Below are positions 1 through 6,716 of a DNA stretch of 13,082 nt, one piece after another. The translations under genes and the position numbers were made by a program. This DNA is from Balneolaceae bacterium. Lineage in GTDB: Bacteria > Bacteroidota > Rhodothermia > Balneolales > Balneolaceae. Every line of letters begins with the position of its first letter. Within the stretch, counting starts at the first letter, position 1. The notes under the pieces were generated by a model. That model was not told the origin of the DNA. It searched no databases and worked only from the letters and a program-made list of their open reading frames with translations. The stretch spans positions 1 to 13,082 of the forward strand of contig SKZL01000195.1 in assembly GCA_007127395.1 (NCBI GenBank), given 5' to 3'.

Positions 1-25
1 ACGTCAGAAGATCCATCTCTTTTTT

Positions 26-538
26 TTAATTTTTTTTTTTGATGATCCGGTCATAATAGTCCTTATGATATGGCATCAAGATGGATGGAAATTTATCGAA
101 GCCCTCAACCAGAATACCAATCTCATCCATCATACCGGGATTTGCAGGGCCTAAAACCTGATCCATCCCCTTTTCATTTAACCAATCCTCAGCAACTTTA
201 AAAAGAATATTGGCTGTTGATTGATTATCAATACATTCAAAAAATCCGAAAAAACCCGTATTGGTATCATGATATTTGTTATATCTGCGATCAATAATTG
301 CAGCAATCCTGCCGGCGGGTTTTCCGTTGTAAGATGCATTAAAGAGAGAAATTTCCGCATTCTTATAAAACGGATTCTTATCCGTATCCAGCAATTTTTT
401 TTGCTCGATAAGTAACGGTGCAACCCAATATTTATCATTCGAGTAGTTGGAGTATGGAAAGCGAATAAACTCCTGTTTCTTGTCTTTGGACGATACATAC
501 ACGATTGTGTTTGTATTCGTTATCTTTTCTTCGTTCAC
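26..538 (-). CDS. GNAT-like N-acyltransferase (bacterial ceramide synthase-like), cut short by an in-frame stop and by the window edge
   Basis: The 170 visible residues match the N-terminal half of a roughly 370-390 residue acyl-CoA N-acyltransferase-like family often encoded beside serine palmitoyltransferase. Recognisable segments are GRIAAIIDRRYN (77-88), GFFGFFEC (95-102), AEDWL (116-120), GPANPGMMDEIG (130-141) and ILMPYHKDYYD (153-163). Bacterial ceramide synthase, which N-acylates the sphingoid base, belongs to this type of protein; that role here is inferred from family and neighbour. The start is GTG at 538, which overlaps the spt stop by four bases (GTGA), so the two genes are translationally coupled. 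A TAA at 28-26 ends the frame after KKKN, but the same frame continues to the window end with KKEMDLLT, which fits the expected continuation. The TAA lies between runs of 11 and 8 A. The gene is therefore either a nonsense pseudogene or carries a sequence error. The C-terminal half lies outside the window. Confidence 0.75.
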   Translation of the reverse strand: MNEEKITNTNTIVYVSSKDKKQEFIRFPYSNYSNDKYWVAPLLIEQKKLLDTDKNPFYKNAEISLFNASYNGKPAGRIAAIIDRRYNKYHDTNTGFFGFFECIDNQSTANILFKVAEDWLNEKGMDQVLGPANPGMMDEIGILVEGFDKFPSILMPYHKDYYDRIIKKKN

Positions 539-1785
539 TCTTTTTCGAAACTAATCAATGATTGACCATTCTCATCGATGATACCGTGTTTAATGCCTAC
601 TTTTCTGAACGCATCCAGTATCATATTCAAATGCTCATCTGTGTGAGTGGCCATATAACTTGTTCTAACAAGTGCCTGACCATTCGGTACGGCCGGTGGC
701 ACAACTGCATTTACATAAACACCCTCTTCAAACAGATCTTTCCAGAACTGGAAGCAGCTATACATATCACCAACAACCACCGGAATGATTGGTGTTTGGC
801 TGGTCCAGACATTAAAGCCCAGATTTTTCAGTTCAGATCTCATATAGTTTGAGATCTCCTCAAGCCTTTCAAGGCGCCAAGGCTCTTCCTGTAATATTTC
901 GAGCGACTTCAAAACGGTAGCAACATTTGCAGGAGGCATACTTGCACTGAAAATATGTGCAGGTGATTTATGCCTGATAAATTCAATGAGCGCAGTGTCG
1001 CCGACCAAAAATCCTCCGAGAGAGGCAAATGATTTTGAAAATGTTCCGCTAATAAGATCAATGTCATCCATCAAACCAAAAACAGAAGCTGATCCTCGCC
1101 CTCCATCACCAATAACACCTATTGCATGAGCATCATCGAGATAAAGACCTGCACCATACTCTTTGCTTATCTCTACCAGCTCCGGAATCTTTGCCAAGGT
1201 ACCCGACATAGAGAATACACCATCACTCACTATGATTTTTCCAGCGTCCGGATCAGATTTTTCAAGCAGTGTTCTAAGATGATCCATATCGTTGTGCCGA
1301 TAACGTACGGTTTTGGCATTGGAAACTTGTGTTCCAACTACGATACATGCATGATTGTCTCTGTCCGAAAATATAATGTCATTTCGGTCAGCTATTACCT
1401 GGATAGAACCTTCATTGGTCTGATAACCGGTACTGAAGAGTACACACGATTCTTTCTTCATGAAAGCTGCAAGCTTCTGCTCCAATTCAAGATGAAGATC
1501 AAGGGTTCCATTTAAATATCTTGAACCTGTACAGCCGGTGCCATACGATTTGATCACTTTTTGCGCGGCTTCAATCGTTCTGGGATCGTTAGTTAGACCC
1601 AGATAGTTATTGGACCCGGCCATGATAACTTCTCTGCCTTCAATATTTACAGTTGTTCCATCTGTCGCCTGTAAAGGCTTGAAATATGGGTATAGTCCTA
1701 ACTTCTTAATCTCATCCGCTGTCGTGAAATCGTACGCTTTCTTAAAAACTTTTCTATATGAGACGTTGGCTTTGGGATCGGCCAT
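535..1785 (-). CDS. spt: Serine palmitoyltransferase-type alpha-oxoamine synthase (PLP)
   Basis: This 416-residue PLP enzyme, of normal family length, belongs to the alpha-oxoamine synthase group (BioF, KBL, HemA, SPT). Visible signatures are the substrate-binding GSNNYLGL (57-64), TGCTGSRYLNGT (83-94), the PLP-stacking His in DNHACIV (His145), SDGVFSMSG (187-195), LDDAHAIG (216-223, Asp217 to the pyridine nitrogen and His220) and the Schiff-base Lys251 in GTFSKSFASLGGF. The FSKSFAS context favours sphingolipid-type enzymes over BioF. It would condense serine with an acyl thioester to 3-ketosphinganine in the cytosol. Cysteate is an alternative amino acid (capnine/sulfonolipid enzymes are close relatives) and sequence alone cannot separate the two. 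ATG at 1785 has no Shine-Dalgarno sequence. The gene has its own candidate promoter upstream and overlaps the acyltransferase gene downstream. No damage is visible. Confidence 0.9.
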   Translation of the reverse strand: MADPKANVSYRKVFKKAYDFTTADEIKKLGLYPYFKPLQATDGTTVNIEGREVIMAGSNNYLGLTNDPRTIEAAQKVIKSYGTGCTGSRYLNGTLDLHLELEQKLAAFMKKESCVLFSTGYQTNEGSIQVIADRNDIIFSDRDNHACIVVGTQVSNAKTVRYRHNDMDHLRTLLEKSDPDAGKIIVSDGVFSMSGTLAKIPELVEISKEYGAGLYLDDAHAIGVIGDGGRGSASVFGLMDDIDLISGTFSKSFASLGGFLVGDTALIEFIRHKSPAHIFSASMPPANVATVLKSLEILQEEPWRLERLEEISNYMRSELKNLGFNVWTSQTPIIPVVVGDMYSCFQFWKDLFEEGVYVNAVVPPAVPNGQALVRTSYMATHTDEHLNMILDAFRKVGIKHGIIDENGQSLISFEKE

Positions 1786-1866: not shown

Positions 1867-2979
1867 TTAATCATACATACTTCTCAAGTAGACAACATAT
1901 TTTTCAACGACTGCATCCCAATTAAATGTTTTTACAACATAATCACGGGCACTATCTGAGAGTTCTTGAATATCTCCACTCAATATTTGGTCAATTTGCT
2001 CAGAAAACCTGTCGGCATTTTCATGAGGCACCCTGTATCCATTTATCCCCTGTTTGATGACATCTTTGATTCCTTCCAAATCTGATGCAACAGCCGGCAA
2101 TCCGGCTCTGTTCGCTTCCAGCAATACTATACCAAAGCCTTCCATGTCACCCGCTACCGGTATGTTTGGCATTATAAACAGATCGGAAGCCGCATAACAG
2201 ACACGAAGCATCTTTTTCGACAACTTTCCGGTCATAAAAATTCGGTCAGACATTGGCGAAAGTTTACAGGCTTGCTCAATGTTCTTGTACTCGGGCCCGG
2301 ATCCCACAATCAGATAAACAAAATCACTCTGAATTTTCGGTACTACCTCCTCGATAAACCACTGATGCCCTTTTCTTTTGACCTGCCTCCCTACAGTCAG
2401 TAATATTTTTTCCCCTGAATAGCCATTTAAGATCTCCCTTTCAAGAACTTCTATCGCCTCCTTTTTATCAGGCAGCTTTTCACTGTCTTGTTCGTCGTAG
2501 CCGTTAGGCAATGCTATTCCCCTATCCGGATCCATCCCACTCTCAATTGACGCTTGCCTTGTTGCAGATGATACTGAGATCACACCATTCAAATTTCTGA
2601 ATACAAACTTTAAGTACCACTGATATATCGCAACAGGTAGAGTCACATCCTGGCCATGATTGATCGTAACTACAGGAATTTTTGGTTTTTTTACCATTAT
2701 TGGCAAGATACATGCCGTTACCATGGATGAAAACAGAACCACGTCCGGATTGAATTTTCTGATAGCTAATGGTATACGCCACAAAAGAGTTATCAAAAAA
2801 AAGGTCGTTTTGATTCCGATGAATCTCCAGGATGAATGCAAAATTAGAGATTCAATTTCAATATCTTCTCTCCGGCTGAGAGCTTTTATCATCTGCACAC
2901 TTACATTCTGCATGCCACCCAGATTTTTCAGTGGTTTATTTTTTGGCGGATGCAGATGTGATACGTATAGAATTCTCAA
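1867..2979 (-). CDS. GT4-family glycosyltransferase
   Basis: A 370-residue GT-B fold retaining glycosyltransferase. The N-terminal acceptor domain opens with MRILYVSHLHPP and the loop NLGGMQ (19-24). The C-terminal donor domain starts near residue 190 with LLTVGRQVKRKGH (Arg198 and Lys203, typical nucleotide-sugar phosphate contacts), then LIVGSGPE (223-230), and ends in the diagnostic EX7E motif (Glu280-Glu288 in EGFGIVLLE). There is no signal peptide; such enzymes usually sit at the inner face of the membrane. The start is TTG at 2979: it gives the canonical N-terminus, and the only upstream codons in frame (ATC AAA ACT TTA TCT GAA) contain no better start before the TAA of the preceding gene. 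It follows another GT4 gene by 18 bases in the same reading frame. Its neighbourhood suggests a sugar head group on a sphingolipid; donor and acceptor cannot be read from sequence. Confidence 0.88.
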   Translation of the reverse strand: MRILYVSHLHPPKNKPLKNLGGMQNVSVQMIKALSRREDIEIESLILHSSWRFIGIKTTFFLITLLWRIPLAIRKFNPDVVLFSSMVTACILPIMVKKPKIPVVTINHGQDVTLPVAIYQWYLKFVFRNLNGVISVSSATRQASIESGMDPDRGIALPNGYDEQDSEKLPDKKEAIEVLEREILNGYSGEKILLTVGRQVKRKGHQWFIEEVVPKIQSDFVYLIVGSGPEYKNIEQACKLSPMSDRIFMTGKLSKKMLRVCYAASDLFIMPNIPVAGDMEGFGIVLLEANRAGLPAVASDLEGIKDVIKQGINGYRVPHENADRFSEQIDQILSGDIQELSDSARDYVVKTFNWDAVVEKYVVYLRSMYD

Positions 2980-2997: not shown

Positions 2998-4116
2998 TTA
3001 AACAATTTCCCGGTAAAACCCAAGTAGCCGTCCATTTATTGCCTCCCATCGATACTGAGAGGCTTTTATCAAAGCTGCTTGCGACATTCGCTTCCTCTGG
3101 TCACTGTTAATGATCAAATTTTCAATTAAGTTATAGAATTTATCTTTTCTTTCAACAGAAATTACATAACCATTTTTACCGTGATCTACCAGCGACCGAC
3201 TTCCTGCAGCATCAGCTACAACAGCTGGCAGCCCGCTTGCCATTGCTTCAAGAGTGACGTTGCCAAAAGTCTCCGTATCAGACGGAAAAAAGAATATATC
3301 AGAAGATGCATAGCACTTCGCCAATTCGGCGCCGGTCTGAAAACCTGCAAAAAAAGTATCCGGCATCAGCTCCTGCATCTCTTCCATCGCAGGCCCGTCA
3401 CCAACAATCAACGATTTAACATTTCTATGTTTCTCACTTAAACTGTTTACGATCTCGGCAAACAGTTTCAGATTTTTTTCCCAAACCAGCCTGGATATAA
3501 ATGTAATTACGAAATCATCTGAATTAAATCCGCACTTTTCTCTCCATTTAATATCTCGGTATTGTGGCCCGAAACTCTCCTCTTCTATCCCGCGAGCCCA
3601 GATCCTTAAATCGGTTTTTATCTCTTTTTCCCGAAGCAGATCAGCCATCGATTCCGATGGAACATATACTTGTTTACACTTCTCATAAAAATTTGTCAGA
3701 TATCTCCAAAGAAGCGGCTCAAGAAGTCCCAGTTTGTAATATTTCAGATAACTTGAAAAGTGCGTGTGATAGGATGCAACAGTAGTTTTTTTGTTTTTTT
3801 CGGCCCACTTTAAAGCTTTCCACCCCAACAGATCCGGTGTTGCGATGTGTATAATGTCCGGATCAAAATCTTCGACTTTTTTTCTGGCTGCATCCGGAAA
3901 AGATCGGCTGATCCGGTATTCAGGCCTGCCCGGCAGGCTGATTGATGGTACTGGTATAAATTCACCAGCATGATCGATCTCCGGTTCCTTGATTGTCGGG
4001 CCAAAAACAAGAACCTGAACTCCATTTTTTAACAAAAATGAGACCAATCTGTTTAATGTAAGGGATACCCCATCACGAATATGATTATAATTACCCGTAA
4101 AAATTGCTACTTTCAA
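2998..4116 (-). CDS. GT4-family glycosyltransferase, MgtA/SQD2-like
   Basis: A retaining GT-B glycosyltransferase of 372 residues from the preferred TTG start at 4116 (N-terminus KVAIFTGNYNHIRDGVSLT, the usual beginning of this family). An ATG 16 codons upstream (4164) would add a non-family leader but cannot be excluded. Numbered from that ATG, visible motifs are DGVSLTLNRL (31-40), VPSISLPGRPEYR (72-84), IIHIATPDLLG (104-114), SYHTHFSSYLKYY (131-143), VPSESM (168-173), SRLVWEKN (224-231), VGDGPA (254-259) and the EX7E pair Glu298-Glu306 in ETFGNVTLE. The pattern resembles glycolipid enzymes such as diacylglycerol mannosyltransferase (MgtA) and sulfoquinovosyltransferase (SQD2), so a lipid acceptor is plausible. 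It is the first gene of the minus-strand cluster leading to the second GT4 gene and spt. Confidence 0.87.
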   Translation of the reverse strand: MKVAIFTGNYNHIRDGVSLTLNRLVSFLLKNGVQVLVFGPTIKEPEIDHAGEFIPVPSISLPGRPEYRISRSFPDAARKKVEDFDPDIIHIATPDLLGWKALKWAEKNKKTTVASYHTHFSSYLKYYKLGLLEPLLWRYLTNFYEKCKQVYVPSESMADLLREKEIKTDLRIWARGIEEESFGPQYRDIKWREKCGFNSDDFVITFISRLVWEKNLKLFAEIVNSLSEKHRNVKSLIVGDGPAMEEMQELMPDTFFAGFQTGAELAKCYASSDIFFFPSDTETFGNVTLEAMASGLPAVVADAAGSRSLVDHGKNGYVISVERKDKFYNLIENLIINSDQRKRMSQAALIKASQYRWEAINGRLLGFYREIV

Positions 4117-4129
4117 ACTGTAAACTCTT

Positions 4130-4160
4130 TTTAAATGCAGTTGCCATCTTACTATCTTTG
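4130..4160 (+). promoter_or_regulatory. Bacteroidota-type promoter for the CerR-like gene
   Basis: TATCTTTG (4153-4160) is a perfect TAnnTTTG element. Nineteen bases upstream is TTTA (4130-4133), one mismatch from TTTG. Transcription would begin near 4166, about 30 bases before the ATG at 4198. The site lies in the divergent region between the glycosyltransferase cluster and the reductase gene. I could not find an equally good promoter for the minus-strand glycosyltransferases here. Confidence 0.45.
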
Positions 4161-4197
4161 ACATGGACTTCCATCAAGTTTTTGAATATACAAATTA

Positions 4198-5172
4198 ATG
4201 AACGCATTTATCACCGGTGGCACCGGTTTTATTGGCAGTCATCTGGCCGACACTCTTATCTCAGATCCAAAATGGGATCAGGTAAAATGTCTGGTTCGAA
4301 GCAGTGAAAAGTGGCTTGAGGGGAAAGATTATATTCGTGTTGAAGGCGACCTGCACTCTATACACGCGATTGAAGAGGCTCTGCATGGAGTGGACGTTAT
4401 TTTTCATATTGCTGCTATAGTCAAAGCTCCGGATCAAAAAAAGTTCGATCATGCGAATGTTGATGCAACAGAGAATATTATCAGACTATCAAAAAAATGC
4501 GGAGTAAAAAAGCTGGTTATTCTCTCATCTCTGGCAGCAGCAGGGCCCAGTAACGGCACTCCCCGCTCTGAGAAGGATCAGATGCAGCCTGTCAGTATGT
4601 AGGGGAAGTCTAAACAAAAGATGGAATGGATGATCCATAAAGAGGCCGGACGTGAGCAATCTGTAACAATTTTAAGACCTCCTGCAGTCTACGGGCCGCG
4701 AGAAGAACAGATCTTCACACTGTTTCAGATGATAAACAGAGGGATTGCCCCAATTGTTGGTGATGGGGAAAACCCAAAACTATCTCTGATTTATGTTGAT
4801 GACCTGATTCAGGCAATTTTAAAATCGGCCCAACAGACCAACCCCGGTGTCTTTACCTATTTTGTTAGTGACGGTGAAGTTGCAAATTGGAATCGTATCA
4901 AAAAGATTGTAGAAACTGTCTTGGGAAAAAAATCAATCTCTATCCCACTTCGGCCGGAATGGGTCAAAAAAATTGCAGGAATTGTTGAAACAACCGCGTC
5001 ATTTTTTGGTTCATATCCCGTTATCAACAGGGAAAAAGCGAATGAAATGATTCTGGAGTGGACCTGTTCAACCGAAAAAGCACGACAAGAACTCAATTAC
5101 GAACCCAAATTCTCACTGGAAGAGGGGTTGTCGCGAACGCTCAGATGGTATAAAAAACACAAATGGCTTTAA
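4198..5172 (+). pseudogene. NAD(P)-dependent SDR, ceramide-reductase (CerR)-like, interrupted by TAG at the catalytic Tyr codon
   Basis: One continuous frame of 325 codons, including an internal TAG at 4600-4602 and the final TAA, encodes an extended/atypical SDR. The N-terminal part has the Rossmann glycine motif GGTGFIGSH (7-15), GDL (50-52), FHIAAIVKAP (69-78) and the catalytic-Ser region LSSLAAAGPS (109-118). Codon 135, where VSM-stop-GKSKQKMEW occurs, is exactly the Tyr of YxxxK, with Lys139 retained. The frame then continues undamaged through LRPPAVYGPRE, LSLIYVDDL and a normal C-terminus. As read, translation yields a 134-residue fragment; an ATG at 4621 could reinitiate a 183-residue C-terminal piece. 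Neither contains the complete catalytic triad. The family includes CerR, the ketone reductase of bacterial ceramide synthesis, and the nearby spt supports that role, though other epimerase/3beta-HSD-like activities are possible. The end overlaps the next gene's first ATG. Confidence 0.85.
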
Positions 5173-6716
5173 TAAATATGCTGAATAACAGAGTTACTAT
5201 CCTATTGTCCGGTATTCTTTTTTTATGCTCAATCACCTCAGTTTCTAAAGCTCAGCTGGTTCAGGACCTGAGTAAACAGATTGAAATACCGGATATCACA
5301 AATATTAGCAGTTCTGAAACTCACCTCTATGTACTCTCAGCCAGTGAGGGCTTGGTGGTATTCCGTGCTTACAGCGATTCATTACAGTGGCTCTATTCAT
5401 CCACCGGAATGCAGGAAAGGGGTCATATTATTAAGAGTGACATTCGTTTTGCCTATCTCTATGGTAACAACAGAAGATTAACTGTAATTGAACCCACTTC
5501 TGTTCTTGGGGTATATTCATCTACAATATTGCCATCACGTCCTATCGCAGTAAAACGGATTGGATTCCGGCTTTTTGCTGCTTTGAACAGTGGCAACCTG
5601 GGCTACCTGAACCTGGAAACAGCTGAGAGTGTTGACTCAGATATGGAGCTTCTGGATAGTAATCGGATTGTTGACCTTGCTTCTGATAAACGAAATACCC
5701 TCTATGCCTTGAATTCCGAAAGTGAGATTATCATTTACGAAGTTGGAGATGAAGAGGTACGTCTGCTTTCTGCCACCCGAACCGACCGGCAAGTTGACCG
5801 CATTTTTTTAACCGGTGGCGAACTGATCGGTACCGACAATTCCGGCAATCTCTATCTGATCAATTCTGATGGTGTTACCAGACGGATTACCCGTGTTTCC
5901 GGGCCTGTCGATCACCTCTCAGCCTGGGATGAGATGATCGTTGTCAGGACCTCTTCCGGTGAACTCTGGACAGGTATGATGGACGGTACCTTCGAAATAT
6001 GGAAATCAGACGAGCGGGCCGGCAACTTTTTTACTGTCTCCGATGATCAAATGTGGCTTGCTGAATTCAATACGATCACCCCTGTTATCAGGCGTACTCC
6101 CGGAGATGAAAATGAGAGGCCCGAAGCTTTGAGCAGTGATTTAAAATTGAAGGAATTTGATGATATTGTCTTACCATTTCCAAGAGCACTGATTCTGCCT
6201 ATTCTATTTGAGAACGAAGTTGATATGAATCAGGTCACCCTCAGCTATAACGCACCATTCAATAATGCCCGAATTCGAGGCAATACTCTTTACTGGCAGC
6301 CACTCGCTTCACAAACAGGGCGTCACCGGATCACTATTACTGCAAATAGTGCCGATGGCCTATCTGATTCTCAAACGTTAATGATTGATTTGCGTTCATT
6401 TAATGCACCTCCACAATTTACGCCATCCAGACCGGTAACCATACCGGTGGGAGAAAGTTTTGATTTCCAGATTACTGCTGTTGATCCGGATGGGCTGGAC
6501 CGTGATTTGATCCGATATTTGGGAGTGGATATGCCAGATGGAGCAAATTTGGAGGAGAAAACAGGAATTTTTTCATGGGAACCGACCATCCGGCAAGTTG
6601 GTGAACACCGGTTTCAGGTTATTGCCACAGATCAATATGGGGCCGCATCTTCTCAAAATTACACGATTAACGTGATCGAAATTACTGAAGAAGATACAGA
6701 CATAAATATTGACTGA
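5163..6716 (+). CDS. Exported beta-propeller-like protein with two C-terminal Ig-like (He_PIG/CADG-type) domains
   Basis: A 517-residue protein with an N-terminal signal peptide (hydrophobic VTILLSGILFLCSIT, likely cut after SKA at residue 30). The Leu before Cys22 makes a lipobox unlikely. Residues about 40-315 contain repeated short strands of the form hLYVLSxxEGLVVF, YALNSESEIIIYEV and NLYLINSDG, suggesting a WD/PQQ-like beta-propeller; this is inference from pattern. Residues about 340-410 and 416-505 form two Ig-like domains. The second is a clear putative-Ig/cadherin-like repeat: APPQFTP, AVDPDGLDRDLIRY, TGIFSWEPTIRQVGEHRF and ATDQYGA. The start could be ATG 5163, overlapping the upstream gene, or ATG 5178, which leaves the signal peptide intact. 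Function is not known; an envelope or periplasmic binding role fits. No type IX sorting domain is visible at the C-terminus (EEDTDINID). Confidence 0.8.
   Translation: MALINMLNNRVTILLSGILFLCSITSVSKAQLVQDLSKQIEIPDITNISSSETHLYVLSASEGLVVFRAYSDSLQWLYSSTGMQERGHIIKSDIRFAYLYGNNRRLTVIEPTSVLGVYSSTILPSRPIAVKRIGFRLFAALNSGNLGYLNLETAESVDSDMELLDSNRIVDLASDKRNTLYALNSESEIIIYEVGDEEVRLLSATRTDRQVDRIFLTGGELIGTDNSGNLYLINSDGVTRRITRVSGPVDHLSAWDEMIVVRTSSGELWTGMMDGTFEIWKSDERAGNFFTVSDDQMWLAEFNTITPVIRRTPGDENERPEALSSDLKLKEFDDIVLPFPRALILPILFENEVDMNQVTLSYNAPFNNARIRGNTLYWQPLASQTGRHRITITANSADGLSDSQTLMIDLRSFNAPPQFTPSRPVTIPVGESFDFQITAVDPDGLDRDLIRYLGVDMPDGANLEEKTGIFSWEPTIRQVGEHRFQVIATDQYGAASSQNYTINVIEITEEDTDINID

Follow-up and report, generated by a model that had tools for sequence, protein, structure and literature searches.

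The window, a stretch of 13,082 nucleotides, is contig 85 of a Balneolaceae draft genome of 400 contigs (2.04 Mb, 64% complete). Its forward strand carries a CerR-like gene of the extended SDR type (NAD-dependent epimerase/dehydratase; 4198..5172, 324 codons followed by TAA), which is interrupted at codon 135. Four genes precede it, all on the reverse strand: a bCerS-like gene (26..538), whose reading frame runs into a premature TAA at 26-28, close to where the contig begins; a serine palmitoyltransferase-like gene (Spt; 535..1785, 416 residues, no internal stop); and two glycosyltransferase-like genes (1867..2979 and 2998..4164), for both of which the models scored below cut-off. A frame of 517 residues follows on the forward strand (5163-6716); it carries an Ig-like domain, He_PIG, at its C-terminus and, with its start as listed, shares 10 bases with the end of the SDR gene.

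Translation of the SDR frame from the ATG at 4198 to the TAA at 5170-5172 showed a single internal stop, the TAG at 4600..4602 (forward strand), which is codon 135. The local sequence reads VSM-stop-GKSK and lies at the YxxxK site of the SDR family; the alignments to orthologous genes and to homologous proteins placed the stop at the catalytic Tyr of this motif, and opposite it stands the Tyr of Y-G-x-S-K in all 51 orthologs. The original prediction had put the amber stop exactly there. The Pfam Epimerase domain (PF01370) was matched on both sides of the stop, by profile positions 2-135 in the upstream piece and 145-228 in the downstream piece, which are successive parts of one model, and GGTGFIG at residues 7-13 represents the N-terminal GxxGxxG of an extended SDR. 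The Epimerase domain and the GxxGxxG motif agree with the SDR identity proposed at the outset, whereas the catalytic YxxxK is broken in the window copy, although its Tyr is present in 51/51 orthologs and in P0001, a full-length homologous protein. The frame was likewise found to be undamaged apart from the TAG, as had been claimed, with the correction that the figure of 325 codons counts the terminal stop and the protein has 324 residues.

The interruption leaves two open frames. The truncated product (4198..4602, forward strand; P0121) has 134 residues and ends just before the active-site Tyr and Lys, and the downstream frame (4621..5172, forward strand; P0179) opens at the ATG of codon 142 and encodes 183 residues with neither the Rossmann motif nor the Tyr and Lys. 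From the mechanism of SDR enzymes, the product of the amber allele, lacking both catalytic residues, should be dead. In the window 12 gene frames were tallied, with the bCerS-like frame counted only up to its own premature stop, and the TAG was the sole stop inside any of them. If codon 135 was a Tyr codon, the SDR frame offers 139 single-base changes that create a stop, of which 2 hit this codon, and the choice of the catalytic codon is a coincidence of 1-2%, judged after the fact.

Spt, bCerS and CerR (ceramide reductase) make up the bacterial ceramide pathway, and their genes are often clustered (PMC11087976, PMC11334938). None of the NCBIfam models reached its cut-off on the SDR frame, and the gene is called CerR-like by its neighbours, a fair name by context. 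These neighbours are the Spt-like gene, whose best model stays below its cut-off (NF047600, 497 bits against 640; PF00155 also matched), and a gene of GNAT type whose position suggests bCerS. The window piece of the latter matched no Pfam or NCBIfam model; its full-length relative L109 carries a GNAT acetyltransferase domain (PF00583, 27 bits against a cut-off of 20.7) and gave no NCBIfam or PDB match, and it is this domain, together with the place beside Spt, that suggests the name bCerS for the gene at 26-538. In 25 of 27 same-genus relatives one contig holds both the SDR gene and the bCerS-like gene, at a distance of 4.1-4.3 kb; the exceptions are G015, where they are on different contigs, and G017, where no close SDR was found. 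The earlier naming of the gene as CerR-like agrees with this neighbourhood, and the enzyme is conserved and probably lipid-making.

A search with the first 134 residues gave matches in 58/58 genomes (57 relatives and the source genome itself). The best match in G017 was weak (1.7e-4) and is probably not an ortholog; the gene was read as DNA in 51 of the 57 relatives, the remainder being G017 and five more members of the order. Codon 135 was TAT or TAC, both encoding Tyr, in every one of the 51, and their aligned parts, which comprised all 324 residues in 49 of them and residues 1-204 and 1-231 in two partial ones, contained no stop. The comparison with close relatives that had been proposed as a check therefore yielded a Tyr codon throughout, and the refuting case of a relative that lacks Tyr was not seen among the 51. 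Consistent with the DNA alignments, a search of 5.8 billion proteins with the read-through protein (X at the stop) returned 5208 matches among 7999 scored, and Tyr occupied position 135 in 120/120 of the best 120 of these. The scan of named genomes gave one distant locus only (29% identity), and all matches in the plasmid scan were below 60% identity.

P0001 matched the read-through protein over its full length, with 319/324 residues identical (98%) and Tyr at position 135. It heads a 90%-identity cluster of 2 sequences from 2 contigs, the longest of which is 19970 bp. Apart from the stop, P0001 differs from the window protein at four residues (191, 215, 216 and 218). All four fall within residues 191-218 (window 4768-4851) and none elsewhere, forming a local divergent tract that perhaps stems from recombination or from a strain-mosaic contig. 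Exact copies of both truncated products, P0121 and P0179, were found as one sequence each, from a contig of 13082 bp, which is the size of the window, and the next-best matches to the two pieces were 69% and 83% identical. Since the truncated products each come from this one contig and an intact near-identical protein is on record, the TAG is private to one contig or assembly in the collections searched.

Recoding had been named originally as worth excluding. In this reading the UAG is decoded as Tyr, whether through an amber suppressor tRNA or programmed read-through, and the full-length enzyme is made. It draws on the intact frame and the conserved motifs on both sides of the TAG, but most of the evidence speaks against it and we consider it very improbable. 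Release factor RF1 was detected above its cut-off (505 bits). In 252,829 fetched bases, of which 11,166 are N (about 242 kb readable), TAG ends 25 of the 178 coding-like ORFs of at least 150 codons, with TAA ending 81 and TGA 72, so that the codon is in ordinary terminal use. None of the 51 orthologs carries TAG at codon 135, the amber allele is limited to one contig, and an intact near-identical allele is on record.

The search for a tRNA with a CUA anticodon, one of the checks proposed earlier, turned up none among the 12 tRNAs of the draft. Infernal had found 11 of these in the genome, and ARAGORN, run on the fetched contigs, added a tRNA-Sec. This is a weak test in a genome that is 64% complete, as no tRNA-Tyr is among the 12 either and a suppressor could equally be missing from the draft. 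A genus-wide search with a single tRNA-Tyr anticodon-arm pattern, which is a narrow test, matched exactly with GTA in 21 of 28 genomes, and no exact match had CTA; four of the 21 exact GTA sites were run through ARAGORN and all four were tRNA-Tyr. Six one-mismatch CTA sites in relatives (L169 to L173 and L180) gave no tRNA by ARAGORN, and none of 34 arm sites in the source genome, at up to 2 mismatches, had CTA. The tRNA-Sec (L091:3513-3607, reverse strand, anticodon TCA) lies at a contig end; the source genome may decode some UGA as selenocysteine, which has no bearing on UAG.

A scan for other interrupted genes in the readable sequence returned 41 candidates (16 TAA, 15 TGA and 10 TAG, including that of the window), of which the TAG ones were checked. 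The scan was a weak one, being permissive, with 21% of off-frame segments above its threshold, and blind to frameshifts. None of the 9 other TAG-split frame pairs looked like one gene, as judged for 5 by Pfam and for 4 by eye, and no other convincing TAG interruption was found in the ~242 kb. Two of the pairs checked by Pfam proved to be adjacent genes (RimP then NusA, and MFS then VCA0040-like), one had a domain upstream only, and two had no domain on either side. The bacterial reassignments known at the time of a screen of 250,000 genomes all concerned UGA, according to that screen (PMC8629427); it names 290 candidate stop codons in bacteria prior to validation and is by its own statement blind to context-dependent stops. 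Recoding was rejected on RF1, the terminal use of TAG, the orthologs and the lack of a second convincing TAG-interrupted gene. The special case of a strain-level Tyr-type amber suppressor that keeps the CerR-like reductase active, so that the make-up of the strain's membrane sphingolipids would hinge on suppression at the catalytic codon, is more doubtful still. Such recoding would be surprising if true, and the evidence runs against it.

The ATG located 18 bases past the stop also invites the reading of a split gene, in which translation halts at 4602, resumes at 4621 and yields two cooperating fragments. It opens a 183-codon frame, and three C-terminal predicted proteins of relatives from other contigs (P0180, P0183 and P0191) start exactly at the same Met of codon 142. 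The catalytic Tyr and Lys are in neither fragment, however, and the gene is unbroken over 324 residues in 49/51 orthologs and, as far as read, beyond codon 135 in the other two, which leaves this reading scarcely credible. The three starts may be contig-edge or gene-caller starts, or may mark further broken copies.

The gene was compared with its orthologs at the 61 columns that are invariant among them, each read in at least 48 of the 51. The window deviates at two of them, residues 98 and 135; the change at residue 98 is from A to S, and the same Ser occurs in P0001. All 33 invariant columns downstream of the stop are kept and the frame stays open to the TAA, which bears out the statement that the family motifs continue there without further stop or frameshift. 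Between the window and eight relatives, pN/pS was 0.175/0.762 before the stop and 0.185/0.715 after it, and among the eight relatives it was 0.179/0.710 before and 0.148/0.675 after. On these means, which come from eight relatives only, change after the stop is somewhat greater in the window gene than among the relatives. The raised downstream pN is not due to the stop, because the intact P0001 has all but four of the downstream residues in common with the window.

The bCerS-like frame at the edge of the contig bears directly on how far the sequence can be trusted. Past its TAA the frame continues as KKEMDLLT, like that of the relatives, and it spans 377-391 codons between stops in 25/27 same-genus relatives (238 and 252 in the other two). 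The site of the TAA, read in 19 of the 27, holds Tyr in 17, Phe in one and Leu in one, and the Gly that precedes it is kept in 19/19 and is Asn in the window. The stop falls in a T8-AA-T11 stretch on the forward strand, right at the contig start. Homopolymers were counted in 41 contigs, of which 4 read as N, leaving 37 readable; a run of 11 was found at 1 of 82 contig ends, that of the window, and it is the longest terminal run among the 37 readable contigs, with no run of at least 10 in 3552 interior 60-mers. Window positions 1-60 look like a bad contig end, which weakens trust in the contig. Alternatively, the stop could mean that another gene of the pathway is broken as well. A search of the draft for the C-terminal part of the bCerS-like gene, run without a positive control, found it at no other place, and so gave no second reading of the region.

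With recoding and a split gene set aside, the TAG is taken as either an error of base calling or consensus in this contig of a fragmented draft, to which we give an even chance, or a real and very recent nonsense mutation, a dead allele in the strain or in part of the population, which we rate somewhat short of even. In the case of an error, a single base at codon 135 would be wrong in a gene without any other lesion, and the organism's own gene would most likely code for a normal CerR-like reductase, full-length and with its Tyr at 135. The truncated products come from one contig and the cluster of the Tyr-bearing P0001 from 2; the 33 downstream invariant columns are kept, and the one other deviation, at residue 98, is shared with P0001. 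In the case of a mutation, translation would end after residue 134, before the Tyr and Lys, and the reductase step would be lost, perhaps along with the bCerS-like gene, as an early loss of sphingolipid synthesis. The intact gene in a near-identical lineage, the mid-contig position of the TAG, the breakage of two neighbouring genes of one likely pathway on one contig, and the higher pN/pS of the window after the stop but not before it can all be cited for this. Against it, the lack of a second lesion means that the mutation must be very young, the raised downstream pN has another source, as described above, and the bCerS stop is located in the suspect contig end.

An error has points against it as well, since the TAG lies about 4.6 kb from the bad end and the scan of the 37 readable contigs did not prove that errors are frequent in general. 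An Illumina motif was attractive as a cause because the TAG extends a G run. The documented motif (PMC4787001) is a 3-mer that closes with GG ahead of the error, and the context of the TAG, GTA before it on the forward strand and CCC on the reverse strand, is unlike this on either strand, so this candidate was dropped; the consulted portion of a review (PMC4719071) holds nothing decisive on the motif. As the second in-frame stop of the contig sits in the abnormal T8-AA-T11 stretch, a consensus error has a slight edge over a real nonsense mutation of very recent date, and we infer that the private base is an error. The original prediction had offered a very recent change, a sequence error or read-through; the private TAG and the intact near-identical allele agree with the first two, and RF1, the TAG terminators and the orthologs speak against the third.

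As matters stand, a private stop in a single draft genome is a finding of little significance. A TAG confirmed as real would amount to a natural knock-out, affecting a likely sphingolipid step in a strain whose relatives keep the cluster, and would test whether the sphingolipid pathway can be lost.

Among known systems, the nearest is CerR, for which the reference genes are CCNA_01222 of Caulobacter and BF9343_4240 of Bacteroides, as given in PMC10865984. The likeness is one of context: the reductase gene of the window lies near Spt and a probable bCerS. CerR is described in PMC11087976 as homologous to NDUFA9, and the window protein shows a weak PDB match to the 39 kDa subunit of complex I (8esw, 2e-6), its best PDB match being a putative oxidoreductase (3wj7, 8e-26). 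Unlike CerR, the window copy has a stop at its catalytic Tyr, and unlike the Caulobacter protein, reported as periplasmic in the same source, it has the Rossmann motif at its very start and, as judged by eye, no signal peptide. In Caulobacter, deletion of cerR leads to a build-up of oxidised ceramide (PMC11087976). BT_0972, the 3-ketosphinganine reductase of Bacteroides thetaiotaomicron, reduces a keto group in sphingolipid synthesis (PMC9278070) and, set beside the window gene by description, is likewise an SDR with Tyr-x-x-x-Lys; as that source describes it, it differs in being a protein of about 31 kDa whose gene does not sit with Spt in the B. thetaiotaomicron genome.

Pyrrolysine and suppressor-tRNA decoding of UAG share with the locus an in-frame UAG in a conserved gene, but here no CUA tRNA was found, RF1 is present, no other convincing case was seen, and the orthologs have plain Tyr codons. 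Assembly errors are reported to give premature stops and frameshifts (PMC12007338); that work deals with long reads. The locus resembles the genes fragmented by draft-assembly errors, and equally ordinary nonsense alleles, in having one premature stop, a conserved frame and an intact allele in a near relative.
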